DNA of 64,000 nt from Arenicola marina (Eukaryota > Annelida > Polychaeta > Arenicolidae), in contig OZ025249.1 in the NCBI GenBank assembly GCA_964019135.1, positions 1,798,001-1,862,000 of the forward strand. The letters run 5' to 3'. Positions 1-64,000 of this stretch are shown in pieces. The translations under genes were made by a program, and so were the position numbers. How positions within the stretch are numbered: the first letter of the stretch is position 1; every line of letters starts with the position of its first letter. The notes beneath the pieces were generated by a model. It was not told where the DNA came from. It saw only the letters and a program-made list of their open reading frames with translations, and ran no database searches.

Positions 1-3000
1 ACCCCATGATAGGTGAGAGCAGGCGGCGTACCACCCGCAGAACCCCATGATAGGTGAGAGCAGGCGGCGTACCACCCGCAGAACCCCATGATATGTGAGA
101 GCAGGCGGCGTACCACCCGGCAAACCCCATGATATGTGAGAGCAGGCGGCGTACCACCCGCCGAACCCCATTATAGGTGAGAGCAGGCGGCGTACCACCC
201 GGCAAACCCCATGATAGGTGAAAGCAGGCGGCGTACCATCCCCCAGAACCATGATAGGTGAGAGCAGGCGGCGTACCACCCGCCGAACCCCATGATAGGT
301 GAGAGCAGGCGGCGTACCACCCGTCGGAACCCTATGATAGGTGAGAGCAGGCGGCGTACCACCCGCCAGAACCCCATGATAGGTGAGAGCAGGCGGCGTA
401 CCACCCGCAGAACCCCATGATAGGTGAGAGCAGGCGGCGTACCACCCGCCAGAACCCCATGATATGTGAGAGCAGACGGCGTACCACCCGCCAAAACCCC
501 ATGATAGGTGAGAGCAGGCGGCGTACCACCCGCAGAACCCCATGATAGGTGAGAGCAGGCGGCGTACCACCCGCCAGAACCCCACGATAGGTGAGAGCAG
601 GCGGCGTACCACCCGCAGAACCCCATGATAGGTGAGAGCAGGCGGCGTACCATCCGCAGAACCCCATGATAGGTGAGAGCAGGCGGCGTACCACCCGCAG
701 AACCCCATGATAGGTGAGAGCAGGCGGCGTACCACCCGCCAGAACCCCATGGTAGGTGAGAGCAGGCGGCGTACCACCCGCAGAACCCCATGATAGGTGA
801 GAGCAGGCGGCGTACCACCCGCCAGAACCATGATAGGTGAGAGCAGGCGGCGTACCACCCGCAGAACCCCATGATAGGTGAGAGCAGGCGGCGTACCACC
901 CGTCGGAACCCCATGGTAGGTGAAAGCAGGCGGCGTACCACCCGCAGAACCCCATGATAGGTGAGAGCAGGCGGCGTACCACCCGCCAGAACCCCATGGT
1001 AGGTGAGAGCAGGCGGCGTACCACCCGCAGAACCCCATGATAGGTGAGAGCAGGCGGCGTACCACCCGTCGGAACCCCATGACAGGTGAGAGCAGGGGGC
1101 GTACCATCCGCCAGAACCCCATGATAGGTGAGAGCAGGCGGCGTACCACCCGTCGGAACCCCATGATAGGTGTGAGCAGGCGGCGTACCACCCGCCAGAA
1201 CCCCATGGTAGGTGAGAGCAGGCGGCGTACCACCCGTCGGAACCCCATGATAGGTGAGAGCAGGCGGCGTACCACCCGCCAGAACCCCATGGTAGGTGAG
1301 AGCAGGCGGCGTACCACCCGTCGGAACCCCATGATAGGTGAGAGCAGGCGGCGTACCACCCGCCAGAACCCCATGATAGGTGAGAGCAGGCGGCGTACCA
1401 CCCGCCAGAACCATGATAGGTGAGAGCAGGCGGCGTACCACCCGCCAGAACCCCATGATAGGTGAGAGCAGGCGGCGTACCACCCGCCAGAACCATTATA
1501 GGTGAAAGCAGGCGGCGTACCACCCGCAGAACCCCATGATAGGTGAGAGCAGGCGGCGTACCACCCGCCAGTACCCCATGATAGGTGAGAGCAGGCGGCG
1601 TACCACCCGCCAGTACCCCATGATAGGTGAGAGCAGGCGGCGTACCACCCGCCAGAACCATGATAGGTGAGAGCATGCGGCGTACCACCCGCCAGAACCC
1701 CATGGTAGGTGAGAGCAGGCGGCGTACCACCCGCCAGAACCCCATGATAGGTGAGAGCAGGCGGCGTACCACCCGCCAGAACCCCATGATAGGTGAGAGC
1801 AGGCGGCGTACCACCCGCCAGAACCCCATGGTAGGTGAGAGCAGGCGGCGTACCACCCGCAGAACCCCATGATAGGTGAGAGCAGGCGGCGTACCACCCG
1901 CCAGAACCCCATGGTAATTGAGAGCAGGCGGCGTACCACCCGTCGGAACCCCATGATAGGTGAGAGCAGGGGGCGTACCATCCGCCAGAACCCCATGATA
2001 GGTGAGAGCAGGCGGCGTACCACCCGCAGAACCCCATGATAGGTGAGAGCAGGCGGCGTACCACCCGCCAGAACCCCATGATAGGTGAGAGCAGGCGGCG
2101 TACCACCCGCCAGAACCATGATAGGTGAGAGCATGCGGCGTACCACGCGCCAGAACCCCATGGTAGGTGATAGCAGGCGGCGTACCACCCGCATAACCCC
2201 ATGATAGGTGAGAGCAGGCGGCGTACCACCCGCCAGAACCCTATGGTAGGTGAGAGCAGGCGGCGTACCACCCGTCGGAACCCCATGATAGGTGAGAGCA
2301 GGGGGCGTACCATCCGCCAGAACCCCATGATAGGTGAGAGCAGGCGGCGTACCACCCGCAGAACCCCATGATAGGTGAGAGCAGGCGGCGTACCACCCGC
2401 CAGAACCATGATATGTGAGAGCATGCGGCGTACCACCCGCCAGAACCATGATAGGTGAGAGCATGCGGCGTACCACCCGCCAGAACCCCATGGTAGGTGA
2501 GAGCAGGCGGCGTACCACCCGCCAGAACCCCATGATAGGTGAGAGCAGGCGGCGTACCACCCGCCAGAACCCCATGATAGGTGAGAGCAGGCGGCGTACC
2601 ACCCGCCAGAACCCCATGGTAGGTGAGAGCAGGCGGCGTACCACCCGCAGAACCCCATGATAGGTGAGAGCAGGCGGCGTACCACCCGCCAGAACCCCAT
2701 GGTAATTGAGAGCAGGCGGCGTACCACCCGTCGGAACCCCATGATAGGTGAGAGCAGGGGGCGTACCATCCGCCAGAACCCCATGATAGGTGAGAGCAGG
2801 CGGCGTACCACCCGCAGAACCCCATGATAGGTGAGAGCAGGCGGCGTACCACCCGCCAGAACCCCATGATAGGTGAGAGCAGGCGGCGTACCACCCGCCA
2901 GAACCATGATAGGTGAGAGCATGCGGCGTACCACGCGCCAGAACCCCATGGTAGGTGATAGCAGGCGGCGTACCACCCGCATAACCCCATGATAGGTGAG

Positions 3001-3290
3001 AGCAGGCGGCGTACCACCCGCCAGAACCCTATGGTAGGTGAGAGCAGGCGGCGTACCACCCGTCGGAACCCCATGATAGGTGAGAGCAGGGGGCGTACCA
3101 TCCGCCAGAACCCCATGATAGGTGAGAGCAGGCGGCGTACCACCCGCAGAACCCCATGATAGGTGAGAGCAGGCGGCGTACCACCCGCCAGAACCATGAT
3201 AGGTGAGAGCATGCGGCGTACCACCCGCCAGAACCATGATAGGTGAGAGCATGCGGCGTACCACCCGCCAGAACCATGATAGGTGAGATG
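1..3290 (+). repeat. Minisatellite, 39-43 bp unit, donor-containing intronic array
   Basis: About 80 head-to-tail copies of a unit running ACCCCATGATAGGTGAGAGC then AGGCGGCGTACCACCCGCCA. Length variants are CGCAGA (41), CCAGA (42), GTCGGA (43) and a 39-bp form lacking CCC. Every unit carries ATAG/GTGAGA, a good + strand 5' splice-site match. The array ends 46 bp before the acceptor of the exon at 3336, so it fills at least 3.3 kb of the preceding intron. Blocks are duplicated at a higher order: 1627-1872 and 2415-2660 are near identical, an offset of 788 bp. Long open frames on both strands (for example 171-1856 on the - strand) are repeat translation, not genes. The parent exon should lie left of the window (inference). 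Confidence 0.93.
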
Positions 3291-3335: not shown

Positions 3336-3651
3336 ACAAGGAGGTCCTGCACAACATCATGGAACAGGTGATGATCAACTGTAGCGGCCAGGACACAGAG
3401 TACAAGTGGATCAAGGCCGAGCCGCTGCAAGACCCGGGTGTCCCTCGGCCCCGCAAGAAGCGCCTCAAGTCGCTGCAGAGCGGCTTCGGCCGGAAGACGA
3501 CCATCAAGGTGTCCGCTAGGAGGCGCCGCTCGCGGTCGACGGGTACGCCGGGTGGTGGCCGCCAGGCGGCGCCAGGGGCGGCGGCCGGGGACCCGGTCAG
3601 ACCGAGTCCCGGGATGCCATGGCGAACGGCGCTGCGAGCCAACCGCGCCAG
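3336..3651 (+). CDS. Internal coding exon of unrecognised coiled-coil protein gene
   Basis: First visible exon of the + strand gene. The acceptor is CTGTCCGGCAG at 3325-3335 and the donor is GCCAG/GTGAGT at 3651/3652. Reading starts with the last two bases of a split codon (phase 1) and ends two bases into a codon that the next exon completes as Arg. The 105-residue product begins KEVLHNIMEQVMINCSGQD, then has a lysine/arginine block (RPRKKRLKSLQSGFGRK, then ARRRRSRS), then a Gly/Ala/Pro-rich, probably disordered tail. The basic block could be a nuclear or microtubule-binding tract (inference). Frame continuity into four later exons shows it is real coding sequence. No domain is recognised. 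The end of this exon is the template of the array that follows. Confidence 0.75.
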
Positions 3652-4032
3652 GTGAGTCCCTCCCGCTCCCCCGCACAACTATCTCATAAAGAGCCAACCG
3701 CGCCAGGTGAGTCTCCCACCTCCCCCGCACAACTATCTCATAAAGAGCCAACCGCGCCAGGTGAGTCCCCCACCTCCCCCGCACAACTATGTCATAAAGA
3801 GCCAACCGCGCCAGGTGAGTCCACCCCTCCCCCGCACAACTATCTCATAAAGAGCCAACGTCACCAGGTGGATCCCCCCTCCCCCGCACAACTATCTCAT
3901 AAAGAGCCAACATCACCAGGTGAGTCCCACCTTGCCCGCACAACCATCTCATAAAGAGCCAACATCACCAGGTGAGTTCCACTTTCCCCGCACAACTGTC
4001 TCATAAAGAGCCCACATCACCAGGTGAGCCCC
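3652..4032 (+). repeat. 54-55 bp tandem copies of exon end plus splice donor
   Basis: The final bases of the exon ending at 3651 (GAGCCAACCGCGCCAG) and its donor GTGAGTCCC recur at about 3693, 3747, 3801, 3854, 3905, 3957 and 4007. Each copy is followed by a CCCCGCACAACTATCTCATA spacer. Later copies diverge (AACATCACCAG/GTGAGT). This gives about eight tandem 5' splice sites including the authentic one. Direct sequence evidence of a junction-spanning tandem duplication. Confidence 0.92.
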
Positions 4033-4104
4033 CCCCCCATGTTTTAGTGGACTGTTTGCTTTGATTCGGTTCAAAGATATGTAAGATCTGGGTCACGTCA
4101 AATC

Positions 4105-5425
4105 TGATCAGGTTATGGTGACCTCGCTGTGGTGAGTGACCTCGCTGTGGAGAGTGACATCGCGGTGGTGAGTGAACTTGCTGTGTTTAGTCACTCGCTG
4201 TGGTGACCTCGATGTGGTGAGTGACATCGCTGTGGTGAGTGACATCGCCGTGGTGAGTGACCTCGCTGTGGTAAGTGACCTCGCTGTGGTGAGTGACCTT
4301 GCTGTGATGCGTGACCTCGCGGTGGTGAGGGACCTCGCTGTGGTAACCTCGCTGTGGTGAGTGACCTCGCTCTGGTGACCTCGCTGTGGTGAGTGACATT
4401 GCTGTGGTGAGTGACCTCGCTATGGTGACCTCGCTGTGGTGAGTGAGCTCGCTATGGTGACCTCGCTGTGGTGAATGAGCTCGCTGTGGTGAGTGACCTC
4501 GCGGTGGTGAGTGACCTTGCTGGGGTGAGTGACTTCGCTGTGGAGAGTGACATCGCTGTGGAGAGTTACGTCGCTGTGTTGAATGGCATTGCTGTGGTGA
4601 GTGACTGCTGTGGTGAGTGATCTCACTGGTGAGTGACCTTGCTGTGTTTAGTGACCTCGCTGTGGTGAGTGACCTCGCTGTGGTGAGGGACCTCGCTGTG
4701 GTGAGGGACCTCGCTATGGTGAGTGACCTCGCTGTGGTGAGTGACCTCGCTGTGGTGAGTGACCTCGCGGTGGTGAGTGACCTTGGTGTGGTGAGTGACC
4801 TCGCTGTGGAGAGTGACATCGCTGTGGAGAGTTATGTCGCTGTGTTGAGTGGCATTGCTGTGGTGAGTGACTGCTGTGGTGAGTGACCTCACTGGTGAAT
4901 GACCTTGCTATGTTTAGTGACCTCGCTGTGGTGAGTGACCTCGCTGTGGTGAGGGACCTCGCTGTGGTGAGGGACCTCGCTATGGTGAGTGACCTCGCTG
5001 TGGTGAGTGACCTCGCTGTGGTGAGTGACCTCGCTGTGGTGAGTGAGCTCGCTGTGGTGAGTGCCCTCGCGGTGGTGAGTGACCTTGGTGTGGTGAGTGA
5101 CCTCGCTGTGGAGAGTGACATCGCTGTGGAGAGTTACGTCGCTGTGTTGAGTGGCATTGCTGTGGTGAGTGACTGCTGTGGTGAGTGACCTCACTGGTGA
5201 GTGACCTTGCTGTGTTTAGTGACCTCGCTGTGGTGAGTGACCTCGCTGTGGTGAGGGACCTCGCTAAGGGGAGTGACCTCGCTGTGGTGAGTGACCTCAC
5301 TGTGGTGAGTGACCTCACTGGTGAGTGACCTCGCTGTGGTGAGTGACCTCGCTGTGGTAAGTGACCTCACTGTGGTGAGTGACCTCGCTGTGGTGACCTC
5401 GCTGAGTGACCTCGCTGTGACCTTG
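4105..5425 (+). repeat. 18-bp minisatellite GTGGTGAGTGACCTCGCT
   Basis: About 70 copies of an 18-bp unit with GAGAGTGACAT and GAGGGACCT variants, filling the rest of the intron up to the acceptor at 5431-5440. Each unit contains TGGTGAGTG, a donor-like core. A 266-bp block (4617-4882) is duplicated from 4883. The period is a multiple of three, so open frames exist on both strands (VVSDLA repeats); these are not genes. Confidence 0.92.
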
Positions 5426-5440
5426 TGGTGTGTCTTTCAG

Positions 5441-5678
5441 AGGCTACCCTCCCGACGACAGCCCCAGCAAGCTGAGCTATGAGGGTGCGGCCGACGCGTC
5501 CCGGGAGAACGGGGGGTCTCCCGGGGGGTCTCCCGGGGGGTCTCCCGGGCACGCCTCGCTCCATCTCGACTACACGTCTGGGGAGGACGAGACGACGGAC
5601 AGCGCGAGGGCCGCCCGCGGTGGCTCAGAGGGTCTCACGGACAGCCTGTGTGAGCTGTCCGCCAGCAAGGAAGTCAAG
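5441..5678 (+). CDS. Second visible exon of the + strand coiled-coil gene
   Basis: The acceptor is TGTGTCTTTCAG (5429-5440) and the donor is GTCAAG/GTAAAG (5678/5679). The first base completes the Arg codon begun in the previous exon, then GYPPDDSPSKLSYEG follows. There is a GGSPGGSPGGSPG stretch and an acidic/serine-rich segment ending CELSASKEVK, and the exon ends in phase 0. The composition suggests a disordered linker before the coiled coil encoded by the next exons. Frame continuity on both sides supports the call. Confidence 0.75.
5508..5550 (+). repeat. Coding 12-bp repeat (GGSP x3)
   Basis: Three copies of GGGGGGTCTCCC within the exon encode Gly-Gly-Ser-Pro repeats. Its 12-bp period preserves the frame, unlike several intronic arrays in the window. 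Confidence 0.8.
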
Positions 5679-5693
5679 GTAAAGAGCGCAGCC

Positions 5694-7860
5694 TGCCCAC
5701 CCTAGCGCCAGTCAACACTTAACCCGTCATAGCGCCAGTCAACACTTAGCCCATCATAGCGCCAGTCAACACTTAACCCACCCTAGCGCCAGTCAACACT
5801 TAGCCATCATAGCGCCAGTCAACACTTAACCCATCATAGCGCCAGTCAACACTTAGCCCACCCTAGCGCCAGTCAACACTTAGCCCACCCTAGCGCCAGT
5901 CAACACTTAGCCCACCCTAGCGCCAGTCAACACTTAGCCCACCCTAGCGCCAGTCAACACTTAGCCCACCCTAGCGCCAGTCAACACTTAGCCCATCATA
6001 GCGCCAGTCAACACTTAGCCCACCCTAGCGCCAGTCAACACTTAGCCCACCCTAGCGCCAGTCAACACTTAGCCCACCCTAGCGCCAGTCAACACTTAGC
6101 CATCATAGCGCCAGTCAACACTTAGCCATCATAGCGCCAGTCAACACTTAGCCCGTTCTAGCGCCAGTCAACACTTAGCCCACCCTAGCGCCAGTCATCA
6201 CTTAGCCCACCCTAGCGCCAGTCAACACTTAGCCCGTTCTAGCGCCAGTCAACACTTAGCCCACCCTAGCGCCAGTCAACACTTAGCCATCATAGCGCCA
6301 GTCAACACTTAACCCGTTCTAGCGCCAGTCAACACTTAGCCCACCCTAGCGCCAGTCATCACTTAGCCATCATAGCGCCAGTCAACACTTAACCCGTTCT
6401 AGCGCCAGTCAACACTTAGCCCACCCTAGCGCCAGTCATCACTTAGCCCACCCTAGCGCCAGTCAACACTTAGCCCGTTCTAGCGCCAGTCAACACTTAG
6501 CCCACCCTAGCGCCAGTCAACACTTAACCCGTTCTAGCGCCAGTCAACACTTAGCCCACCCTAGCGCCAGTCATCACTTAGCCCACCCTAGCGCCAGTCA
6601 ACACTTAGCCCGTCATAGCGCCAGTCAACACTTAGCCATCATAGCGCCAGTCAACACTTAGCCCACCCTAGCGCCAGTCATCACTTAGCCCACCCTAGCG
6701 CCAGTCAACACTTAGCCCGTCATAGCGCCAGTCAACACTTAGCCATCATAGCGCCAGTCAACACTTAGCCCATCATAGCGCCAGTCAACACTTAACCCGT
6801 CATAGCGCCAGTCAACACTTAACCCGTCATAGCGCCAGTCAACACTTAGCCCACCCTAGCGCCAGTCAACACTTAGCCATCATAGCGCCAGTCATCACTT
6901 AGCCCATCATAGCGCCAGTCAACACTTAACCCGTTCTAGCGCCAGTCAACACTTAGCCATCATAGCGCCAGTCATCACTTAGCCCATCATAGCGCCAGTC
7001 AACACTTAGCCCGTCATAGCGCCAGTCAACACTTAGCCCACCCTAGCGCCAGTCAACACTTAGCCCGTCATAGCGCCAGTCAACACTTAGCCCACCACAT
7101 CGCCAGTCAACACTTAGCCCATCATAGCGCCAGTCAACATTATCGCATCATAGCGCTAGTCAACACTTAGCCCATCGTAGCGCCAACCAATACTTAGCCC
7201 ATCATAGCGCGTCAACACTTAGCCTATCATAGCGCTAGTCAACACTTAGCCCTCCGTAGCGCCAGTCAACACTTAACCCGTTCTAGCGCCAGTCAACACT
7301 TAGCCATCATAGCGCCAGTCATCACTTAGCCCATCATAGCGCCAGTCAACACTTAGCCCGTCATAGCGCCAGTCAACACTTAGCCCACCCTAGCGCCAGT
7401 CAACACTTAGCCCGTCATAGCGCCAGTCAACACTTAGCCCACCACAGCGCCAGTCAACACTTAGCCCATCATAGCGCCAGTCAACATTATCGCATCATAG
7501 CGCTAGTCAACACTTAGCCCATCGTAGCGCCAACCAATACTTAGCCCATCATAGCGCGTCAACACTTAGCATATCATAGCGCTAGTCAACACTTAGCCCT
7601 CCGTAGCGCCAGTCAACACTTAACCCGTTCTAGCGCCAGTCAACACTTAGCCATCATAGCGCCAGTCATCACTTAGCCCATCATAGCGCTAGTCAACACT
7701 TAGCCCATCATAGCGCCAGTCAACACTTAGCCCATCATAGCGCTAGTCAACAATCAGCCCATCGTAGCGCCAGTCAACACTTAGCCAGTCGTAGCGCCAG
7801 TAAACACTTAGCCCATCAGAGCGCCAGTCAACACTTAGCCCATCGTAGCCCATCATACCG
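5694..7860 (+). repeat. 27-bp minisatellite (TAGCGCCAGTCAACACTTAG + CCCACCC)
   Basis: About 80 copies with CCC-ACCC, CCATCA and CCCGTTC end variants. The array starts only 15 bp after the donor of the exon at 5441-5678. Unlike several neighbours, this unit has no donor consensus. Blocks around 6890-7260 recur at about 7260-7620, a higher-order duplication. No gene is seen here. Confidence 0.92.
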
Positions 7861-8605
7861 CCCGCAGTGTGTCTCTAGAGTGTCGCCAGTCAACACTTAG
7901 CCCATCATACCGCCCACACTGTGTCTCCAGAGTGTCGCCAATCAACACTTAGCCCATCATACCGCCCCAGTGTATCTCCAGAGTGTCGCCAGTCAACACT
8001 TAGCCCATCATACCGCCCACAGTGTGTCCCCAGTGTCGCCAGTCCACACTTAGCCCATCATACCGCCCCCAGTGTGTCTCCAGCGTGTTGCCAGTCAACA
8101 CCTAGCCCATCATACCGCCCCAGTGTATCTCCAGAGTGTTGTCAGTCAACACTTAGCCCATCATACCGCCCCAGTGTGTCTCCAGAGTGTTACCAGTCAA
8201 CACTTAGCCCATCATACCGCCCACAGTGTATCTCCAGAGTGTCGCTAGTCAACACCTAGCCCATCATACCGCCCCAGTGTGTCTCCAGAGTGTTGCCAGT
8301 CAACACCTAGCCCATCATACCGCCCCAGTGTGTCTCCAGAGTGTTGCCAGTCAACACTTAGCCCATCATACCGCCCCAGTGTGTCTCCAGAGTGTTGCCA
8401 GTCAACAGTTAGCCCATCATACCGCCCCAGTGTGTCTCCAGAGTGTTGCCAGTCAACACTTAGCCCATCATACCGCCCCAGTGGGTCTCCAGAGTGTTGC
8501 CAGTCAACAGTTAGCCCATCATAACGCCCCCAGTGCGTCTCCAGCGTGTTGCCAGTCAACAGTTAGCCCATCATAACGCCCCCAGTGCGTCTCCAGCGTG
8601 TTGCC
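7861..8605 (+). repeat. 51-bp composite minisatellite
   Basis: About 14 copies. Each unit is the preceding 27-bp repeat core (GCCAGTCAACACTTAGCCCA) with an added CCGCCCCAGTGTGTCTCCAG AGTGT segment. It looks like a daughter family made by insertion into one 27-bp unit followed by amplification. The frame is open on both strands because the period is a multiple of three. Confidence 0.88.
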
Positions 8606-8653
8606 CCCGTTGAGCTGGCCGGCAGGTAACATGGACACATTGTTCGGTTTCAG

Positions 8654-8731
8654 GTGGAACTGGAGCAGTTGAGACGGCGACTTCGAGACGAGAGGGCGGC
8701 CAGAACCAGGGCTGAGGAACGCGTGCTGGAG
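8654..8731 (+). CDS. Coiled-coil exon of the + strand gene
   Basis: The acceptor is GTTCGGTTTCAG (8642-8653) and the donor is GGAG/GTGAGG (8731/8732). Exactly 26 codons, phase 0 at both ends. The peptide VELEQLRRRLRDERAARTRA then EERVLE is a strong heptad-type charged helix. It continues directly into the next exon (LTVESGRLRTDLEEF). The RxxAEERVxEL pattern resembles, from memory, a coiled-coil stretch of SPICE1. Coiled coils match easily by chance, so this is only a hint. Confidence 0.8.
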
Positions 8732-9110
8732 GTGAGGGGGTCGATGGGCGCTAGGGGTGGCTTCATGGAATGAGGATGAGGGCGATGGGGTGAGGGGGTG
8801 GTAGGGATCAGGAGGGGAGGGGGTGTGTTGATGGGGTGAGGGTGAGGGGGTGGGAGGGGGTGGGTCCACGGGGTGAGGGTAAGGGGTGGAAGAGGGGGGG
8901 GTTTAAGTCGTCAGGGTAAGAGTGGGGTGAGGGCTAGGGGGGTGGAGTGGGGTGGGGTGAGGGGGAGGGGATGGGTCCACGGGGTGAGGGTAAGGGGTGG
9001 AAGGGGGTGGGTATACGTCGTCAGGGTAAGAGTGGGGTGAGGGCGAGGGGGGTGGGGTGAGGGCGAGGGGCGGGGTGGGGTGAGGGCGAGGAGTGGTGTA
9101 GGCGCCATGA
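8732..9110 (+). repeat. G-rich intron filled with GGGGTGAGGG repeats
   Basis: Irregular repeats of GGGGTGAGGGTAAGGGGTGG and GGGTAAGAGTGGGGTGAGGG begin at the donor GTGAGGGGG itself, so the donor motif is again reiterated. There are many runs of three to eight G, giving potential G-quadruplex and intronic G-run splicing-enhancer character. A 110-bp block (8870-8900 versus 8990-9030) is duplicated. Confidence 0.75.
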
Positions 9111-9154
9111 GGATCCTGCAATGACGTGAGTTGATCCATTGTCCATGTTTCCAG

Positions 9155-9300
9155 CTGACGGTTGAGTCTGGCAGACTCCGGACTGACCTGGAGGAGTTCC
9201 GCGCCCGCCGCAGCCTTCTGGACGACGACCGCGTCCTGGAAAGCATCGAGGCGTCCTTCAAGCAGTTCCACGGCTTTCTTGATCTACTCAGGGATGCGGG
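9155..9300 (+). CDS. Coiled-coil exon of the + strand gene
   Basis: The acceptor is TCCATGTTTCCAG (9142-9154) and the donor is GCGGG/GTAAGT (9300/9301). It starts in phase 0 with LTVESGRLRTDLEEFRARRS and continues LLDDDRVLESIEASFKQFHG then FLDLLRDAG, whose Gly codon is completed by the next exon. It is a continuation of the helix from the exon at 8654, followed by an amphipathic, less charged segment. The last 32 bases are tandemly duplicated into the intron. Confidence 0.8.
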
Positions 9301-9385
9301 GTAAGTGGCCACGGCTTTCGGGATCCACTCAGGGATGCGGCGTAACTGTCCACGGCTTTCTGGATCTACTCTGGGCAAGTGTTCT
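9269..9385 (+). repeat. 41-bp triplication across exon end and donor
   Basis: CACGGCTTTC begins at 9269 (in the exon), 9310 and 9351. The second copy runs through GATCCACTCAGGGATGCGGC then GTAACT, and the third ends CTCTGG/GCAAGT. Exon end and 5' splice site are therefore copied twice into the intron. This is a young, short example of the process that seems to have built the long arrays elsewhere in the window. Confidence 0.9.
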
Positions 9386-9562
9386 ATTTCTGTTGCGCAG
9401 CTGTGTTTTCTGGGTTTTTGTAATGTTTACGGTGTTTTCTTTTTACAATGTTTACTGACAATGTTTATGGTTATAGTCTTTGCTTCACCATATTTTGGCT
9501 GATTACATACACTATTTGCTGCTATCTGAGTACTGATTACACTGTTTTCTTGTGGTCGCCAG

Positions 9563-10526
9563 CCTGGGTCAGCTGATCACCCTGGCGGGCGTGGACCAAT
9601 CCCAGCTCACCATCCCGCGACCGTCGCTCCCCCTGGATGACAGCCGGGCGCCCCGTGACGTCACCACCCTCCAGACTAGCGGGCAGCGCTCGGCCTTCCA
9701 ACCCACGCACCTCGGTCACGGCGGCCGTGCCGACGTCACTCACGGCAGTGGTGACGTCACCGGGGACCTCTCTGACGTCACTGGCGGTCTCATTAGAGAC
9801 GAACGCGCTGATATCAGCACCGGAACTGCTGTTGGTGACGTCAGTTCCGGGAGCGGCTATGGCTACGGCGACATGTCCTATTTGTCGACGGAGGCGTTGC
9901 AGCAGGCGGCCCTGGGGGTGGGGGGTGGGGAGCGGGCCCTGCTGACCCACCCCCTGCCGGGCAGCCAGGCCAGCGCAGGGGACCCTACCATGAGGCGGGC
10001 GGCTGGGGCCCCGCTGCGGCCCGTGGCCCTGGAGCAGAGAACGCTGTCCAGGTTTGACGAGCTCTACCAGAAGGTGCTGAAGGAGACGGAGGGAGCTTTG
10101 GCACAGGGTCACGGGGACTCCCCTCTGGCCGCCGGCCTGGGGGGGCCCCCCGCCCCCGGCAACCAGGTCGAGGCTCGCGCCCCAGCCGGCGACAGCGTAA
10201 CCATGGCGACTCGTCCCCCTGGAGATCGCTCTCTGGACGACACGGGTCTGCACTCTGACCAATCGGCTCACTCTAGCGGCTCCAAGGAGTCAGGCAAGGG
10301 ATCCCACAGGTCCGAGGGGTCCCGCCACTCCGGGGGGTCCCACAGGTCCGGGGGGTCCCACAGGTCCGGGGGGTCCCACCACTCCCGGGGCTCCCATCGC
10401 TCCCAGGGCCACAGCACGACCAGGTCACAGGCCACTGTGAAGGAGGCAGACCCACAGGGGCCGGAGCGTCGTCATGGCAACCCGGATCAGGTCTCTGAGG
10501 AGGAAATCGAGGAGTTCATCGAGTAA
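9563..10526 (+). CDS. Terminal coding exon of the + strand coiled-coil gene
   Basis: The acceptor is TTGTGGTCGCCAG (9550-9562). The first base completes Gly, then LGQLITLAGVDQSQLTIPRP follows. A long low-complexity region comes next, with repeated DVT/DVS motifs (RDVTTL, ADVTH, GDVTG, SDVTG, GDVSS). A short helix-like segment LSRFDELYQKVLKETEGAL follows, then Ser/His/Gly repeats (GGSHRSGGSHRSGG, SRGSHRSQGHS). The acidic C-terminus is EEEIEEFIE, with TAA at 10524-10526. The five exons visible join without a frame break into about 590 residues. The protein is probably cytoskeletal or centrosomal by composition (inference). SPICE1-like is possible but unproven. Confidence 0.8.
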
Positions 10527-10870
10527 ACCTCAAGGTCACCAGTAGACCTCCAGGTCACCAGTAGACCTCCATGTCACTAGGGAAACCTTGTGGAGGGCCA
10601 AGTGGAGCGGTCTGGGTCTGTAAAGTACTTTATTGATAACAGAACAAAATCCGATCTGATGGAACCGGTTTGAGCAGTATTGTTGTGATTGACCTGCAAG
10701 AGAAGGTCTAACACGATCGCAAAGTACATCAGTGTTACGTTTGTCTTAGAAAGTCTCTTTTATTAATACTGTTTCGTGTTTAAACAGGAGATTTCTCGTC
10801 CAGACTAAGAGTCACGGGCTGACGATCGCAACATTAAAGCAAATCTTTTATTTTAGCCATTAACAGATTA
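10527..10870 (+). other. 3' UTR of the + strand gene
   Basis: AT-richer unique sequence follows the TAA. Three short copies of AGACCTCCAGGTCACCAGT lie just after the stop, at 10527-10580. A probable poly(A) signal ATTAAA is at 10833-10838, and an alternative AATAAA lies at 11194-11199. The cleavage site is not determined. Confidence 0.5.
10833..10838 (+). terminator. Candidate polyadenylation signal ATTAAA
   Basis: ATTAAA about 310 bp downstream of the stop codon at 10524, in AT-rich context and followed by T-rich sequence (CTTTTATTTTAG). This is the commonest variant of AATAAA. An AATAAA at 11194-11199 is a rival. Confidence 0.4.
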
Positions 10871-40628: not shown

Positions 40629-40645
40629 AGCACTCCACCTTTCAG

Positions 40646-45190: not shown

Positions 45191-45191
45191 C

Positions 45192-53585: not shown

Positions 53586-53681
53586 AATGAAATGAAATGT
53601 TGGTGTTTTAGGCCACTTTTGTGCACATACAGGCTAAATTGGGCCAAGGAACCTCCCGGGACGATGAAGGATGAAGGAATG
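53586..53681 (-). mobile_element. SINE 3' fragment, copy 3
   Basis: Identical context to copy 2 at an offset of 1330 bp, so it was carried by the higher-order duplication of the 30-bp array. Confidence 0.85.
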
Positions 53682-55166
53682 GTAGTATGACTTGAGATGG
53701 ACCCCAGCACCACTGCTATCACAGTAGTATGGTTTGAGAGGGTCCCTATTACAGTAGTATGGTTTGAGATGGTCCCTGTCACAGTACTATGGTTTGAGAT
53801 GGTCCCTGTCACAGTAGTATGGTTTGAGATGGTCCCAATCACAGTAGTATGGTTTGAGATGGTCCCAATCACTAGTATGGTTTGAGATGGTCACTGTCAC
53901 AGTAGTATGGTTTGAGATGGTCCCTGTCACGGTAGAATGGTTTGAGATGGTCCCTGTCACAGTAGTATGGCTTGAGATGATCCCTGTCACACTAGTATGG
54001 TTTGAGATGGTCCCTGTCACAGTAGTATGGTTTGAGATGATCCCTGTCACACTAGTATGGTTTGAGATGGTCCCTGTCACAGTAGTCTGGTTTGAGATGG
54101 TCCCTGTCACAGTAGTATGGTTTGAGATGGTCCCTGTCACAGTAGTATGGTTTCAGATGGTCCCTGTCACAGTAGTATGGTTTGAGATGGTCCCTGTCAC
54201 AGTAGTATGGTTTGAGATGGTCGCTGTCACAGTAGTATGGTTTGAGATGGTCCCTGTCACAGTAGTATGGTTTGAGATGGTCCCTGTCACAGTAGTATGG
54301 TTTGAGATGGTCCCTGTCACAGTAGCATGGTTTGAGATGGTCCCTGTCACAGTAGTATGGCTTGAGATGATCCCTGTCACACTAGTATGGTTTGAGATGG
54401 TCACTGTCACACTAGTATGGTTTGAGATGGTCCCTGTCACAGTAGTATGGTTTGAGATGGTCACTGTCACAGTAGTATGGTTTGAGATGGTCCCTGTCAC
54501 AGTAGTATGGTTTGAGATGGTCCCTGTCACAGTAGTATGGTTTGAGATGGTCCCTGTCACAGTAGTATGGTTTGAGATGATCCCTGTCACACTAGTATGG
54601 TTTGAGATGGTCCCTGTCAAAGTAGTATGGTTTGAGATGGTCCCTGTCACAGTAGTATGGTTTAAGATGGTCCCTGTCACAGTAGTATGGTTTGAAATGG
54701 TCCCTGTCACAGTAGTACGGTTTGAGATGGTCCCTGTCACAGTAGTATGGTTTGAGATGGTCCCTGTCACAGTAGTATGGTTTGAGATGGTCCCTGTCAC
54801 AGTAGTATGGTTTGCGATGGTCCCTGTCACAGTAGTATGGTTTGAGATGGTCCCTGTCACAGTAGTATGGTTTGCGATGGTCCCTGTCACAGTAGTATGG
54901 TTTGAGATGGTCCCTGTCACAGTAGTATGGTTTGAGATGGTCCCTGTCAAAGTAGTATGGTTTGAGATGGTCCCTGTCACAGTAGTATGGTTTGAGATGG
55001 TCCCTGTCACAGTAGTATGGTTTGAGATGGTCCCTGTCACAGTAGTATGGTTTGAGATGGTCCCTGTCACAGTAGTATGGTTTGAGATGGTCCCTGTCAC
55101 AGTAGTATGGTTTGAGATGGTCCCTGTCACAGTAGTATGGTTTGAGATGGTCCCTCGGGCTCGCAC

Positions 55167-55294
55167 CAGGTCCAGGTCGTCCTCGAGTGGTGGCGCCATC
55201 TTCAGGAGCTGCATGCCGTATGCCTTATCGTGACTGCACATGTAGTCGAACAGCTGCTGCCCGGAACTGTTCGTGTCGTCAATGGTTACGGTGT
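55167..55294 (-). CDS. SZT2: SZT2 internal exon (about 42 codons)
   Basis: The - strand acceptor is ATGTTGTGTTGCAG before 55294. The first two bases complete Asp from the exon at 56665, then TVTIDDTNSSGQQLFDYMCS HDKAYGMQLLKMAPPLEDDL DL. The pattern QLFDYM...AYGMQLLKM fits the remembered vertebrate [20 protein letters not shown]. The only donor compatible with the next exon's phase that I see is GACCTG/GTGCGA at 55167/55166, which is weak. The frame stays open past it, through VRARGTISNHTTVTG, into the 30-bp array, so the true exon end is uncertain. Confidence 0.8.
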
Positions 55295-55384
55295 CTGCAA
55301 CACAACATCAAGGTGGCTAACGAGCAACAGACGTTATGGAAACGCAAGAGTTATAAGGCTTCACAGACAGGGATAGCACACTAA

Positions 55385-56565
55385 ATACATCAGATCAGAT
55401 ACACCGAACCAGATACAGCGGACCAGATAGATCGGACCAGATAGATCGGACCAGATAGATCGGACCAGATACATCAGACCAGATACATCAGACCAGATAC
55501 ATCAGACCAGATACATCAGATCAGATACATCAGACCAGATACATCGGACCAGATACAGCGGACCAGATAGATTGGACCAGATAGATCGGACCAGATAGAT
55601 CAGACCAGATATATCAGACCAGATACATCAGACCAGATGCATCAGACCAAATACATCAGACCAGACAGGTCAGACCAGATACATCGGACCAGAAACAGCG
55701 GACCAGATACAGCGGACCAGATAGATCGGACCAGATAGATCGGACCAGATAGATCGGACCAGATACATCAGACCAGATACATCAGACCAGATACATCAGA
55801 CCAGATACATCAGATCAGATACATCAGACCAGATACATCGGACCAGATACAGCGGACCAGATAGATTGGACCAGATAGATCGGACCAGATAGATCAGACC
55901 AGATATATCAGACCAGATACATCAGACCAGATGCATCAGACCAAATACATCAGACCAGACAGGTCAGACCAGATACATCGGACCAGAAACAGCGGACCAG
56001 ATACAGCGGACCAGATAGATCGGACCAGATAGATCGGATCAGATAGATCGGACCAGATAGATCGGACCAGATAGATCGGACCAGATACATCAGACCAGAT
56101 ACATCAGACCAGATACAGCGACCAGATACATCAGACCAGATAGGTCAGACCAGATACATCGGACCAGAAACATCGGACCAGATAGAGGCGGACCAGATAG
56201 ATCGGACCAGATAGATCGGACCAGATACATCAGACCAGATACATCAGACCAGATACAGCGACCAGATACATCAGACCAGATAGGTCAGACCAGATACATC
56301 GGACCAGAAACATCGGACCAGATAGAGGCGGACCAGATAGATCGGACTAGATAGATCGGACCAGATATATCAGACCAGATACATCAGACCAGATACATCA
56401 GACCAACTACATCAGACCAGATAGATCAAACCAGGTAGATCAGACCAGATAGACCAGACCAGATACATCAGACCAGATACATCGGACCAGATACAGCGGA
56501 CCAGACAGATCAGACCAGATAGATCAGACCAGATACATCAGACCCAATATCTCAGACCAAGAGAT
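55385..56565. repeat. 14-bp minisatellite (ATCAGACCAGATAC)
   Basis: About 84 copies of ATCAGACCAGATAC / ATCGGACCAGATAG, with a duplicated block of 264 bp (about 55404-55667 and 55705-55990). It starts about 100 bp after the donor of the exon at 56665 in - strand sense. No splice consensus in the unit. No gene seen. Confidence 0.92.
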
Positions 56566-56664
56566 ATCGGCTTATGTATGACCGGATACTTTATACATAT
56601 TATATTTTAGTAAATTATAAATAATGATAAGCAAACTGAAAAGCAAACAGAAGTCAGTTCTAAC

Positions 56665-56881
56665 CTTCGTATATATAATTCCTTGCAAAGCTGGGCGCGT
56701 AGGAATACTGTTTGACGAAGTCTGTGAGGAGGCCGGTGACGTGGTAGTTAGGCTTGAGTGAGTGGGGGGCCGACCCCAGAACGTAGGACAGGACGGTCCT
56801 CAGGTGGTAGTCGTGGGTGAAGGAGTGGACGTGGGTCAGGTCTTTGGAGCGGTCACACTCGTCCGTAAACATCACCGCCAG
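56665..56881 (-). CDS. SZT2: SZT2 internal exon (72 codons)
   Basis: The - strand acceptor is ACTTCCCCCCTCAG before 56881 and the donor is GAAG/GTTAGA at 56665/56664. It starts in phase 0 with LAVMFTDECDRSKDLTHVHS FTHDYHLRTVLSYVLG. It continues LKPNYHVTGLLTDFVKQY and ends FARNYIYE plus one base. The HSFTHDYHLR...YHVTGLLTDF...FARNYIYE series matches the remembered vertebrate LHSFSYDFHLR...FGRNHIYQ region of SZT2. The donor has T at +3, which is off consensus. Confidence 0.9.
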
Positions 56882-56929
56882 CTGAGGGGGGAAGTAGCAT
56901 GGTAACATGGAGCCCACTGGGGGCTATGG

Positions 56930-58720
56930 GTACTTAAGATTAGGTGCTAAGTAGACTGGGTACTTAAGGTGGGGTGTTAAGACTACGTACGTTAGGGTTG
57001 ATGGACTTGGCCTCGGGCATGCTGGGTACTTAATGTGGGGTTGTCAAGGTTACGTTCGCTGGGATTGACGGACTTGGCCTCGGGCATGCTGGGTACTTAA
57101 GGTGGTGTTTTTAAGGCTACGTACGTTAGGGTTGACGGACTTGGCCTCGGGCATGCTGGGTACTTAAGGTAGGGTTGTCAAGGTTACGTTCGCTGGGGTT
57201 GACAGACTTGGCCTCAGGCACACTGGGTACTTAAGGTGGAGTGTTAAGGCTACGTACGTTAGGGTTGACGGACTTGGCCTCGGGCATGCTGGGTACTTAA
57301 GGTGGGGTTGCCAAGGTTACGTTCGCTGGGGTTGACGGACTTGGCCTCGGGCAGACTGGGTACTTAAGGTGGTGTTTTTAAGGCTACGTACGTTAGGGTT
57401 GACGGACTTGGCCTCGGGCATGCTGGGTACTTTAGGTGGGGTGTTAAGGCTACGTACGTTATTGTTGACGTACTTGGCCTCGGGCAGACTGGGTACTTAA
57501 GGTAGGGTTGTCAAGGTTACGTTCGCTGGGGTTGACGGACTTGGCCTCATGCACACTGGGTACTTAAGGTGGAGTGTTAAGGCTACGTACGTTAGGGTTG
57601 ACGGACTTGGCCTCGGGCATGCTGGGTACTTAAGGTGGGGTTGCCAAGTTTACGTTCGCTGGGGTTGACGGACTTGGCCTCGGGCAGACTGGGTACTTTA
57701 GGTGGGGTGTTAAGGCTACGTACGTTAGGGTTGACGGACTTGGCCTCGGGCATGCTGGGTACTTAAGGTGGGGTTGTCAAGGTTACGTTCGCTGGGGTTG
57801 ACGGACTTGGCCTCGGGCAGACTGGGTACTTAAGGTGGTGTTTTTAAGGCTACGTACGTTAGGGTTGACGGACTTGGCCTCGGGCATGCTGGGTACTTTA
57901 GGTGGGGTGTTAAGGCTACGTACGTTATTGTTGACGTACTTGGCCTCGGGCAGACTGGGTACTTAAGGTAGGGTTGTCAAGGTTACGTTCGCTGGGGTTG
58001 ACGGACTTGGCCTCATGCACACTGGGTACTTAAGGTGGAGTGTTAAGGCTACGTACGTTAGGGTTGACGGACTTGGCCTCGGGCATGCTGGGTACTTAAG
58101 GTGGGGTTGCCAAGTTTACGTTCGCTGGGGTTGACGGACTTGGCCTCGGGCAGACTGGGTACTTTAGGTGGGGTGTTAAGGCTACGTACGTTAGGGTTGA
58201 CGGACTTGGCCTCGGGCATGCTGGGTACTTAAGGTGGGGTTGTCAAGGTTACGTTCGCTGGGGTTGACGGACTTGGCCTCGGGCAGACTGGGTACTTAAG
58301 ATGGGGTTTTAAGGCTACGTACGTTAGGGTTGACGGACTTGGCCTCAGGCATGCTGGGTACTTTAGGTGGGGTTGTCAAGGTTACGTTCGCTGGGGTTGA
58401 CGGACTTGGCCTCGGGCAGACTGGGTACTTAAGATGGGGTTTTAAGGCTACGTACGTTAGGGTTGACGGACTTGGCCTCAGGCATGCTGGGTACTTTAGG
58501 TGGGGTTGTCAAGGTTACGTACGTTAGGGTTGACGGACTTGGCCTCGGGCAGACTGGGTACTTAAGATGAGGTTTTAAGGCTACGTACGTTATTGTTGAC
58601 GGACTTGGCCTCAGGCATGCTGGGTACTTAAGATGGGGTGATAAGGTTACGTACGTTAGGGTTGACGGACTTGCCCTCGGGCAGACTGGGTACTTAAGAT
58701 GGGGTTTTAAGGCTACGTAC
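56930..58720 (-). repeat. 60-65 bp tandem copies of exon end plus donor
   Basis: About 28 copies of GTTGACGGACTTGGCCTCGG GCATGCTGGGTACTTAAGGT then GGGGTGTTAAGGCTACGTAC. On the - strand each carries about 30 bases of the end of the exon at 58721 (CTGCCCGAGGCCAAGTCCGT CAAC) and then AACGTACGTAGCC, the donor. Two alternating subtypes end AAC/GTACGT or AAC/GTAACC. Blocks recur at an offset of about 476 bp (57359 and 57835). Confidence 0.95.
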
Positions 58721-58943
58721 GTTATTGTTGACGGACTTGGCCTCGGGCAGACTGGAGGCAGACTCGAAGGCGTAGACGTGGACGCAGAAGTAGACGTCCG
58801 TGAAGCCCACTTCGATGAGGATGATTCCTCCCGGGAGCGTCTTCTGCAGGTAGGTGAAGTCCCCCCTAAGGCCCACCACCGGCTGACTCCGCACGTCCTC
58901 AGACTTCCGCCGGTCGCCGCTCCCCCGCGACCCCGACCGTGCC
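58721..58943 (-). CDS. SZT2: SZT2 internal exon (74 codons), first in window
   Basis: The - strand acceptor is GCTATTGGTTACAG before 58943 and the donor is AATAAC/GTACGT at 58721/58720. The first base completes a codon from an exon beyond the window. It then reads ARSGSRGSGDRRKSEDVRSQ and later GDFTYLQKTLPGGIILIEVG then FTDVYFCVHVYAFES, ending KSVNNN in phase 0. The GGIILIEVGF...YFCVHVYA strand pair resembles the vertebrate SZT2 segment preceding the HSF motif. The exon end is the template of the 60-65-bp array. Confidence 0.87.
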
Positions 58944-58989: not shown

Positions 58990-61900
58990 CTTGTTATCAG
59001 GCTCACAAGATAAGGGGGTGAGGGGTCAAGCTGATGTACTCACAACTTGCGGGAGGTGGCAGGGTGGGTCAGGCTGATGTACTCACAACTTGCGGGAGGT
59101 GGCAGGGTGGGTCAGGCTGATGTACTCACACATTGCGGGAGGTGGCGGGGTGGGTCAGGCTGATGTACTCACACCTTGCGGGAGGTGGCAGGGTGGGTCA
59201 GGCTGATGTACTCACAACTTGCGTGAGGTGGCGGGGTGGGTCAGGCTGATGTACTAACAACTTGCGCGAGGTGGCAGGGTGGGTCAGGCTGATGTACTCA
59301 CACCTTGCGGGAAGTGGCGGGGTGGGTCTGGGTGATGTACTCACACCTTGCGGGAGGTGGCGGGGTGGGTCAGGCTGATGTACTCACATATAGCGGGAGG
59401 TGGCGGGGTGGGTCAGGTTGATGTACTCACACCTTACGCGAGGTGGCGGGGTGGGTCAGGCTGAGGTACTCACACCTTGCGCGAGGTGGCGGGGTGGGTC
59501 AGGCTGAGGTACTCACACCTTGCGGGAGGTGGCGGGGTGGGTCAGGCTGATGTACTCACACCTTGCGGGAGGTGGCGGGGTGGTGGGTCTGGGTGATGTA
59601 CTCACACCTTGCGGGAGGTGGCGGGGTAGGTCAAGCTGATGTACTCACACCTTGCGGGAGGTGGCGGGGTGGTGGGTCTGGGTGATGTACTCACACCTTG
59701 CGGGAGGTGGCGGGGTGGGTCTGGGTGATGCAATCACATCTTGCGGGAGATGACAGGGTGGGTCTGGGTGATGCAATCACATCTTGCGGAGATGGCAGGG
59801 TGGGTCTGGGTGATGTACTCACACCTTGCGGGAGATGACAGGGTGGGTCTGGGTGATGCAATCACATCTTGCGGAGATGGCAGGGTGGGTCTGGGTGATG
59901 TACTCACACCTTGCGGGAGGTGGCGGGGTGGTGGGTCTTGGTGATGTACTCAAACCTTGCGCGAGGTGGCGGGGTGGGTCAGGCTGAGGTACTCACACCT
60001 TGCGGGAGGTGGCGGGGTGGTGGGTCAGGCTGATGTACTCACACCTTGCGGGAGGTGGCGGGGTGGTGGGTCTGGGTGATGTACTCACACCTTGCGGGAG
60101 GTGGCGGGGTGGTGGGTCTGGGTGATGTACTCACACATTGCGGGAGGTGGCGGGGTGGGTCAGGCTGATGCACTCACACCTTGCGGGAGGTGGCGGGGTG
60201 GTGGGTCAGGCTGATGTACTCACACATTGCGGGAGGTGGCGGGGTGGGTCAGGCTGAGGTACTCACACCTTGCGGGAGGTGGCGGGGTGGTGGGTCTGGG
60301 TGATGTACTCACACCTTGCGGGAGGTGGCGGGGTGGGTCTGGGTGATGCAATCACATCTTGCGGGAGATGACAGGGTGGGTCTGGGTGATGCAATCACAT
60401 CTTGCGGAGATGGCAGGGTGGGTCTGGGTGATGTACTCACACCTTGCGGGAGATGACAGGGTGGGTCTGGGTGATGCAATCACATCTTGCGGAGATGGCA
60501 GGGTGGGTCTGGGTGATGTACTCACACCTTGCGGGAGGTGGCGGGGTGGTGGGTCTTGGTGATGTACTCAAACCTTGCGCGAGGTGGCGGGGTGGGTCAG
60601 GCTGAGGTACTCACACCTTGCGGGAGGTGGCGGGGTGGTGGGTCAGGCTGATGTACTCACACCTTGCGGGAGGTGGCGGGGTGGTGGGTCTGGGTGATGT
60701 ACTCACACCTTGCGGGAGGTGGCGGGGTGGTGGGTCTGGGTGATGTACTCACACATTGCGGGAGGTGGCGGGGTGGGTCAGGCTGATGCACTCACACCTT
60801 GCGGGAGGTGGCGGGGTGGTGGGTCAGGCTGATGTACTCACACATTGCGGGAGGTGGCGGGGTGGGTCAGGCTGAGGTACTCACACCTTGCGGGAGGTGG
60901 CAGGGTGGGTCATGCTGATGTACTCACACCTTTCGGGAGGTGTCGGGGTGGTGGGTCAGGCTCATGTACTCACAACTTGCGGGAGGTGGCGGGGTGGTGG
61001 GTCTGGGTAATGTACTCACACCTTGCGGGAGGTGGCGGGGTGGATCAGGCTGATGTACTCACACCTTGCGGGAGGTGGCGGGGTGGGTCAGGCTGATGTA
61101 CTCACACCTTGCGGGAGGTGGCGGGGTGGTGGGTCAGGCTGATGTACTCACAACGTGCGGGAGATGGCGGGGTGGTGGGTCTGGGTGATGTACTCACATT
61201 GCGGGAGGTGGTAGGGTGGCTCAGGCTGATGTACTCACACCTTGCGGGAGGTGGCGGGGTGGTGGGTCAGGCTGATGTACTCACACCTTGCGGGAGGTGG
61301 CGGGGTGGTGGGTCAGGCTGATGTACTCACAACGTGCGGGAGATGGCGGGGTGGTGGGTCTGGGTGATGTACTCACACATTGCGGGAGGTGGTAGGGTGG
61401 CTCAGGCTGATGTACTCACACCTTGCGGGAGGTGGCGGGGTGGTGGGTCTGGGTGATGTACTCACACCTTGCGGGAGGTGGCGGGGTGGGTCAGGCTGAT
61501 GTACTCACACCTTGCGGGAGGTGGCAGGGTGGCTCAGGCTGATGTACTCACACCTTGCGGGAGGTGGCGGGGTGGCTCAGGCTGATGTACTCACAACTTG
61601 CGCCAGGTGGCGGGGTAGGTCAGGCTGATGTACTCACACCTTGCGGGAGGTGGCGGGGTGGGTCAGGCTGATGTACTCACACCTTGCGGGAGGTGGCGGG
61701 GTGGTGGGTCAGGCTGATGTACTCACAACGTGCGGGAGATGGCGGGGTGGTGGGTCTGGGTGATGTACTCACACCTTGCGGGAGGTGGCGGGGTGGGTCA
61801 GGCTGATGTACTCACACCTTGCGGGAGGTGGCGGGGTGGTGGGTCAGGCTGATGTACTCACAACGTGCGGGAGATGGCGGGGTGGTGGGTCTGGGTGATG

Positions 61901-64000
61901 TACTCACACCTTGCGGGAGGTGGTAGGGTGGCTCAGGCTGATGTACTCACACCTTGCGGGAGGTGGCGGGGTGGTGGGTCTGGGTGATGTACTCACACCT
62001 TGCGGGAGGTGGCGGGGTGGGTCAGGCTGATGTACTCACACCTTGCGGGAGGTGGCAGGGTGGCTCAGGCTGATGTACTCACACCTTGCGGGAGGTGGCG
62101 GGGTGGCTCAGGCTGATGTACTCACAACTTGCGCCAGGTGGCGGGGTAGGTCAGGCTGATGTACTCACACCTTGCGGGAGGTGGCGGGGTGGGTCAGGCT
62201 GATGTACTCACACCTTGCGGGAGGTGGCGGGGTGGTGGGTCAGGCTGATGTACTCACAACGTGCGGGAGATGGCGGGGTGGTGGGTCTGGGTGATGTACT
62301 CACACCTTGCGGGAGGTGGCGGGGTGGGTCAGGCTGATGTACTCACACCTTGCGGGAGGTGGCGGGGTGGTGGGTCAGGCTGATGTACTCACAACGTGCG
62401 GGAGATGGCGGGGTGGTGGGTCTGGGTGATGTACTCACACCTTGCGGGAGGTGGCAGGGTGGCTCAGGCTGATGTACTCACACCTTGCGGGAGATGGCGG
62501 GGTGGTGGGTCTGGATGATGTACTCACACATTGCGGGAGGTGGCGGGGTGGGTCAGGTTGATGTACTCACACCTTGCGGGAGGTGGCGGGGTGGGTCAGG
62601 TTGATGTACTCACACCTTGCGGGAGGTGGTAGGGTGGCTCAGGCTGATGTACTCACACATTGCGGGAGGTGGTAGGGTGGCTCCGGCTGATGTACTCACA
62701 CATTGCGGGAGGTGGCGGGGTGGGTCAGGCTGATGTACTCACACCTTGCGGGAGGTGGCGGGGTGGTGGGTCAGGCTGATGTACTCACAACTTGCGGGAG
62801 ATGGCGGGGTGGTGGGTCTGGGTGATGTACTCACACCTTGCGGGAGGTGGCGGGGTGGGTCAGGCTGATGTACTCACACCTTGCGGGAGGTGGCAGGGTG
62901 GCTCAGGCTGATGTACTCACATCTTGCGGGAGGTGGCGGGGTGGGTCTAGGTGATGTACTCACATTGCGGGAGGTGGTAGGGTGGCTCAGGCTGATGTAC
63001 TCACACCTTGCGGGAGGTGGCGGGGTGGTGGGTCTGGGTGATGTACTCACACATTGCGGGAGGTGGCGGGGTGGGTCAGGTTGATGTACTCACACCTTGC
63101 GGGAGGTGGTAGGGTGGCTCAGGCTGATGTACTCACACATTGCGGGAGGTGGTAGGGTGGCTCAGGCTGATGTACTCACACATTGCGGGAGGTGGCGGGG
63201 TGGGTCAGGCTGATGTACTCACACCTTGCGGGAGGTGGCGGGGTGGCTCAAGCTGATGTACTCACACATTGCGGAAGGTGGCGGGGTGGGTCAGGTTGAT
63301 GTACTCACACCTTGCGGGAGGTGACAGGGTGGTTCAGGCTGATGTACTCACACATTGCGGGAGGTGGCGGGGTGGGTCAGGTTGATGTACTCACTCCGTG
63401 TGGGAGGTGGCGGGGTGGGTCAGGCTGATGTACTCACACCTTGCGGGAGGTGGCGGGGTGGGTCTGGGTGATGTACTCACACCTTGCGGGAGATGACAGG
63501 GTGGGTCTGGGTGATGCAATCACATCTTGCGGAGATGGCAGGGTGGGTCTGGGTGATGTACTCACACCTTGCGGGAGGTGGCGGGGTGGTGGGTCTTGGT
63601 GATGTACTCAAACCTTGCGCGAGGTGGCGGGGTGGGTCAGGCTGAGGTACTCACACCTTGCGGGAGGTGGCGGGGTGGTGGGTCAGGCTGATGTACTCAC
63701 ACCTTGCGGGAGGTGGCGGGGTGGTGGGTCTGGGTGATGTACTCACACCTTGCGGGAGGTGGCGGGGTGGTGGGTCTGGGTGATGTACTCACACATTGCG
63801 GGAGGTGGCGGGGTGGGTCAGGCTGATGCACTCACACCTTGCGGGAGGTGGCGGGGTGGTGGGTCAGGCTGATGTACTCACACATTGCGGGAGGTGGCGG
63901 GGTGGGTCAGGCTGAGGTACTCACACCTTGCGGGAGGTGGTAGGGTGGGTCATGCTGATGTACTCACACCTTTCGGGAGGTGTCGGGGTGGTGGGTCAGG
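58990..64000 (-). repeat. 43-46 bp minisatellite upstream in the SZT2 intron
   Basis: About 115 copies of CTCACACCTTGCGGGAGGTG GCGGGGTGGGTCAGGCTGAT GTA, with TGG-insertion and CTGGGTGAT variants. On the - strand each unit has CCTCCCGCAAG/GTGTGAGTAC, a donor-like junction. The parent exon would lie beyond 64000 (inference). Higher-order copies: 59741-59944 equals 60359-60562 (offset 618). The array runs off the window edge. Confidence 0.93.

Follow-up and report, generated by a model that had tools for sequence, protein, structure and literature searches.

In a 64,000-nucleotide stretch of the Arenicola marina genome (OZ025249.1, 1.80-1.86 Mb of a 61.5-Mb contig in an 867-Mb assembly; hereafter the window), introns carry copies of the edges of their own exons, and the repeat units of the tandem arrays in these introns often span the exon edge. 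The window contains the 3' parts of two convergent genes, CEP78 on the plus strand, which ends at 10526, and SZT2 on the minus strand, which ends at 16316. Judged from its sequence, the structure fits the definition of the minisatellites called mirages in amphioxus. The observations are probably best explained by ordinary tandem duplication that includes exon edges, with splicing acting as a filter on what is tolerated.

Each gene model is a single open frame, phase-consistent, with GT-AG at every intron. The identities are given by matches to Capitella for CEP78 (E=9.1e-80) and to human SZT2 (E=3.5e-74). The exons are:

3336..10526, plus strand, 3' part of CEP78: A1 3336-3651, A2 5441-5678, A3 8654-8731, A4 9155-9300, A5 9563-10526 (stop).
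16316..58943, minus strand, C-terminal part of SZT2, exons from high to low: B1 58943-58721, B2 56881-56665, B3 55294-55167, B4 45841-45583, B5 45233-45192, B6 36082-35884, B7 34719-34578, B8 34174-33971, B9 16891-16823, B10 16462-16316 (stop).

An earlier reading of these letters (the sequence-only reading) had proposed that at six exon ends, 3651, 9300, 33971, 34578, 35884 and 58721, the unit that begins the intron is the end of the exon itself plus its donor. All six are GT donors of the gene models. When a boundary query of 30 exon and 20 intron nucleotides was scored against its own intron, with a threshold of 20, these donors gave 29, 31, 27, 50, 20 and 46, respectively, as compared to a maximum of 19 among 342 non-own pairings at the locus. 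The own exon end and donor are therefore found in the repeat unit at 6/13 window donors; the remaining seven stayed below the threshold (A2 11, A3 15, B2 9, B3 9, B4 9, B5 10, B9 13). The arrays include 20, 37, 14, 75, 8 and 39 exon bases, in the same order (6-75 had been claimed), and because the exon share per unit varies from 8 to 75 nt there is no fixed breakpoint. The periods differ between introns, as had also been said: the program TRF reported 52, 41, 23, 101 and 41 for the first five, and a dimer of 133 at 58721, where copies are spaced 66-67 apart. With a query of 40 exon bases alone, the signal was clear only for donors 9300 (26), 34578 (40) and 58721 (33), plus the SZT2 stop; 3651 did no better than its best shuffle (both 16), and the score was 9 for each of 33971 and 35884, these three being weak because they share few exon bases with their arrays. 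The arrays at window donors are:

3636..4028, plus strand, array with a 52-54 bp unit that holds the final 16-20 nt of exon A1 and the donor.
9268..9375, plus strand, array with a 41-bp unit that holds the end of exon A4 and the donor.
16950..33984, minus strand, array of about 17 kb from exon 33971: TACCAC plus donor, GTGAGTACT, in a 23-bp unit, with 70 further exact donor 9-mers and a gap of N at 27604-27803 inside.
34248..34652, minus strand, array with a 101-bp unit that holds the final 75 nt of exon 34578 and the donor.
35542..35891, minus strand, degenerate array with a 41-43 bp unit that holds the final 8 nt of exon 35884 and the donor.
56953..58759, minus strand, array with a 66-67 bp unit that holds the final 30-39 nt of exon 58721 and the donor; 16 further exact donor 9-mers.
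46331..55155, minus strand, array without recognisable exon copy, starting within about 12 nt of donor 55167 (score 9).

The last of these has units of 30, 39 and 42 bp, and the frame of B3 stays open for about 1,000 nt into this intron past a weak donor, GTGCGA. Within the 17-kb array, about 5 kb of 22499-32835 can be aligned from one side of the 200-N gap to the other with 90% identity; many other shifts align too, as expected in an array.

The array lies nearer the donor in 10/12 window introns that carry an array, and no array overlaps an exon start in the window (0/15). The sixteen introns of the locus, meaning the window plus the nearest flanking exons, were searched for further exact copies of their own donor 9-mer: seven contain 304, 75, 70, 16, 16, 5 and 2, and nine contain none. 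No antisense donor 9-mer was present in the own intron of any of the 13 window donors. Age gradients of the copies away from the exon were mixed: negative without significance for A1 and B1, negative for B8 (p 9e-7), positive for B6 (p 0.03) and absent for B10. The broader idea that intronic arrays in general are donor copies was rejected by a scan of 24 consensus units with a donor matrix that was also used in the automatic myosin count below: donor-like 9-mers of at least 6 bits were present in 8 units in sense and in 4 in antisense, and sense exceeded antisense in 15/24 (p=0.31).

Two further arrays touch the edges of the window, and their parent exons, presumed by the sequence-only reading to lie outside it, were read ahead of fetching the flanks:

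1..3288, plus strand, array of 42-bp units copied from the donor and the end of the CEP78 exon before it (RQNPMI); it starts about 440 bases left of the window.
59023..63991, minus strand, 43-46 bp array: part of a 23,316-nt SZT2 intron; the parent exon (PATSRKV) has its end at 82260 in window coordinates.

In the phase set by exon A1, the first unit codes for R-Q-N-P-M-I plus a split D, and at this place CEP78 homologs have RQNPMID in Capitella and mostly RRNPLID in molluscs. For the second unit, PATSRKV and PPPAR were both compatible with the phase, and protein homologs did not decide between them. In the fetched flanks the CEP78 exon ends VRQNPMI and the SZT2 exon ends THPATSRKV, each directly followed by the array. 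Both parents do lie outside the window, and of the endings predicted before the flank sequence was seen, the CEP78 reading was correct, as was one of the two SZT2 readings. The next CEP78 exon upstream behaves likewise, with an 85-bp unit that includes 73 exon bases. The total for the locus is 9/16 donors with a score of at least 20.

The copies are not restricted to donors. Further SZT2 exons were modelled by matches to human SZT2 (E=1.9e-40 and 6.1e-33), and of their eleven introns 3/11 donors scored at least 20, as did 4/9 testable acceptors (e2 43, e6 46, e9 24, e12 49; the start of exon e12 is less certain than other exon starts). The repeat mask shows exon bases inside the array at acceptors e6, e9 and e12. 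Strict donor exclusivity, which the 0/15 acceptors of the window might have suggested, is overturned by these acceptor copies. Stop codons are affected as well:

15682..16349, minus strand, 47-bp x 14 array: last coding bases of SZT2, stop codon and 3' untranslated region; score 50; no donor in the array.
10522..10577, plus strand, 19-bp x 2.9 repeat: touches the stop codon of CEP78; a marginal case whose score of 17 misses the threshold, with 8 coding nt in the mask.

Two other observations concern exon starts. Before CEP78 exon A0 (L003 9031-9411), a 20-bp array resembles the A0 acceptor, with a score of 17 and only 2 exon bases; it was not counted. On the minus strand of L009, the intron upstream of exon n1, which we take to be NOL10-like, carries a copy of exon-internal bases 34-62 (score 26).

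Exons beyond the locus were sampled in two ways. Three systematic samples contained exons that we take to be DOCK-like, NOL10-like and annexin; here 2/10 donors passed, one with only 3 exon bases, and 1/11 acceptors. The second sample took every fourth of 77 myosin-head exon matches, 20 in all, of which 18 loci were used with 450-nt flanks. The myosin boundaries were set automatically. Inspection of three loci led to the removal of L035 and to new boundaries for L037 and L040, the automatic boundaries being kept elsewhere, and the automatic count of 4/18 exon ends became 3/18 donors, with 0/18 acceptors. The passing donors are on contigs C12, C11 and C4, the C4 case with only 4 exon bases. By inspection, L035 and L037 have GC donors, and that of L037 is copied within its array; at L035 the start of the next exon is copied immediately before the acceptor of that exon (score 32), which is outside the counts.

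Overall, scores of at least 20 were obtained for 17/55 donors and 5/56 acceptors (p=0.0043), divided between donors and acceptors as 6/13 and 0/15 in the window, 6/14 and 4/12 in flanking exons, 2/10 and 1/11 in the systematic samples, and 3/18 and 0/18 in the myosin sample. The e8 acceptor, the e1 acceptor and the n3 donor, which had no set boundary, were left out; the value of 50 for n3 against other introns is an artefact of one intron entered twice. Non-own pairings of exon end and intron reached 20 in 0/956 (342 with a maximum of 19, 308 with 16, 306 with 16). The comparison with shuffled exon/array pairings, proposed by the sequence-only reading as its check, came out in its favour for the sampled exons. 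On its companion question, whether arrays sit at intron starts more often than at intron ends, the window arrays lean to the starts; outside the window, the excess of donors over acceptors is not significant.

The explanation we consider probable is as follows. Ordinary tandem duplication, by slippage or unequal repair, would occur at arbitrary places, exon edges among them; the exon-adjacent copy would stay under selection, while the remaining copies would expand and drift. Splicing would then determine which founders survive. A duplicated donor would leave the exon and the first donor untouched, with the spares downstream, and a duplicated stop codon would be as harmless. A duplicated acceptor would place its spares upstream, in the zone of branch point, pyrimidine tract and AG, where tolerance is expected to be lower. 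These introns would have grown from about 170 nt to a median of 1.8 kb as a few founders expanded. When every array was collapsed, 75.7 kb in 16 introns shrank to 4.3 kb, with a median of 168 nt, which suggests growth by amplification of few founders. Read-through past the donor met its first in-frame stop at intron nt 2-25 in 6/6 of the donor-array cases in the window. Transcripts using a spare donor would therefore be recognisable as faulty, and may be degraded.

In a founder null, random founders were placed in introns collapsed to one unit per array; this is a rough model with hand-entered array limits and collapsed lengths. Without an acceptor footprint it predicted 2.6/16 locus donors (P 0.0001), and with a footprint of 40-60 nt it predicted 5.2-6.2/16, as compared to 9 seen (P 0.02-0.07). 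Since the null with footprint predicts 5.2-6.2 of the 9, a splicing filter can, under this model, account for most of the asymmetry between donors and acceptors at the locus.

Several points weigh against this explanation. The donor excess is not wholly absorbed by the founder null, and some residual donor preference may exist; gaps at window acceptors are just 7 and 9 nt in two cases. Outside the window the difference is not significant (11/42 donors vs. 5/41 acceptors, p=0.16), and the same is true of flanking exons (p=0.70) and of other genes (5/28 vs. 1/29, p=0.10). The donor bias is clear only when the window, which was chosen for its arrays, is included, and the proposed splicing filter itself is therefore only partly supported; outside the window both the filter and a donor preference are tentative. 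Among the individual cases, the n4 and L040 donors share only 3-4 exon bases, d6 is degenerate, and the copy of acceptor e2 lies 603 nt away, outside any short-period array. The donors are also those of the gene models, so that their use is deduced from sequence.

The sequence-only reading had suggested a process tied to the donor, perhaps an R-loop or a conflict of replication and transcription. In this view, which may be widened to U1 or co-transcriptional splicing, something at the 5' splice site of transcribed genes would induce the tandem duplication. We regard this as unlikely, although both the excess of donors over acceptors in the whole sample and the 9/16 locus donors, more than the footprint null predicts, would follow from it. 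An R-loop would be expected to confine copies to donors and to leave a G-rich non-template strand, whereas acceptor copies and a stop-codon array exist, and the GC skew of seven donor-derived arrays ranges from -0.48 to +0.39 with no common sign; the array at 59023, donor-derived as well, has -0.39. Many repeat units have no donor, and the bias outside the window is not significant. Equally doubtful is the stronger proposal that, beyond selection, mutation coupled to transcription or splicing seeds arrays at 5' splice sites and that donor-proximal duplication is a main engine of intron growth. The other possibility raised by the same reading, selection against arrays elsewhere, fits better.

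It is much less probable that selection keeps the arrays as clusters of decoy or back-up donors that aid or regulate splicing. The exact donor 9-mers repeated in seven introns, with none in antisense at the window donors, would suit such a role, as would the GT kept in every copy found at 3651 (6/6), 9300 (1/1) and 34578 (3/3). However, in ungapped windows GT is kept in only 16/26 copies at 58721, 4/8 at 35884 and 107/520 at 33971, the stop codon has a like structure, and read-through runs into stops. That assembly errors in repeats multiplied the exon ends is hardly credible: there is a 200-N gap inside the 17-kb array, and a further SZT2 intron has N at about 84077-84277, but copies carry private substitutions, every intron has a different unit, the 23-kb array lies in N-free stretches (the N of the window are confined to 27604-27803), and like structures occur in other genes and contigs.

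Introner elements are a single family present at many sites. Many introns are affected here too, but each has its own unit, as the 0/342 non-own pairings that reach 20 indicate. A different parallel, with the amphioxus mirages, had been drawn by the sequence-only reading and is borne out by the published descriptions, as far as the available portions of PMC3087553 and PMC3902484 go: mirages are tandem duplications of exon-intron boundaries, 5' or 3', with many units carrying AG/GT signals, in the globin genes Gb6 and Gb9, Adh3 and TnC, with similar repeats in PGBD5, and splicing is reportedly unharmed. In our sample a boundary-spanning tandem unit was found at 17/55 donors and 5/56 acceptors, with splice signals in the copies (further exact donor 9-mers in 7/16 introns), and unit size is gene-specific, as in the portions of these papers available. 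A cephalochordate host is outside the structural definition of mirages, and the host here, whose CEP78 falls in a clade with lophotrochozoans, is not one. Other differences from the descriptions available are the phylum and the scale, with an array that reaches about 23 kb and copies numbering in the hundreds, as compared to 3 and 6 units in two BflGb6 haplotypes; moreover, the present cases were sampled across many exons and include a stop codon. Among the matches listed, covering titles and abstract openings with subscription journals mostly uncovered, none described mirages outside cephalochordates. In the AGGT model, intron gain by tandem genomic duplication also copies splice signals, according to the portions available (PMC3087553; PMC4974935), whereas here existing introns are enlarged. 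Earthworm metallothionein genes offer a second annelid case of a large intronic minisatellite, a repetitive region of 10-19 kb with a mean unit of about 180 bp; the available part of PMC12783039 makes no link between unit and exon edge.

In the CEP78 tree, the window row (32% filled) is in a clade of 17 rows (96/94) in which every named member is a lophotrochozoan, and it stands next to Capitella (86/89, unstarred), with hemichordates and fishes outside; the rows include no cephalochordate. This placement makes an annelid the likely source and rejects amphioxus. By a self-similarity measure, tandem repeats make up 87.6% of the window as a whole (0% when it is shuffled); the share is 92% in its introns, 12% in its exons and 91% in the SZT2 introns beyond it. 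In twenty 10-kb samples taken systematically along the contig the mean is 30% (median 16%); those above 0.55, three in number, are at 3, 54 and 57 Mb, and the sample at 6 Mb gave only 0.04. Across the 20 samples of contig C2, tandem content and GC tend to climb together, and the three most repetitive samples are at most 7.5 Mb from a contig end, some end samples not being repetitive. CEP78 exons hold short coding repeats at 5510-5549 and 10298-10409 (GGSP and GGSHRS). An 897-codon open frame runs through an 84-bp array at 37537-40230 on the plus strand, antisense to SZT2, and just before it an exon-like stretch with AG and GT edges lies at 37113-37274. The Rfam scan of the window at gathering scores gave 0 matches, and the best result of a PDB search with a piece of CEP78 was at chance level (E 0.11).

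What is new here is the animal group, the scale, with 304 further exact copies of its own donor in one intron, and the stop-codon case. This extends mirage arrays to a second animal group, distant from the first, in which they are frequent enough for statistics, with 17/55 donors overall and 3/18 in the sample taken independently of arrays. An intron that repeats its own donor and exon end identically, up to hundreds of times, is a natural experiment in how the spliceosome chooses a 5' splice site, and the arrays illustrate how introns may grow from about 170 nt to 23 kb.

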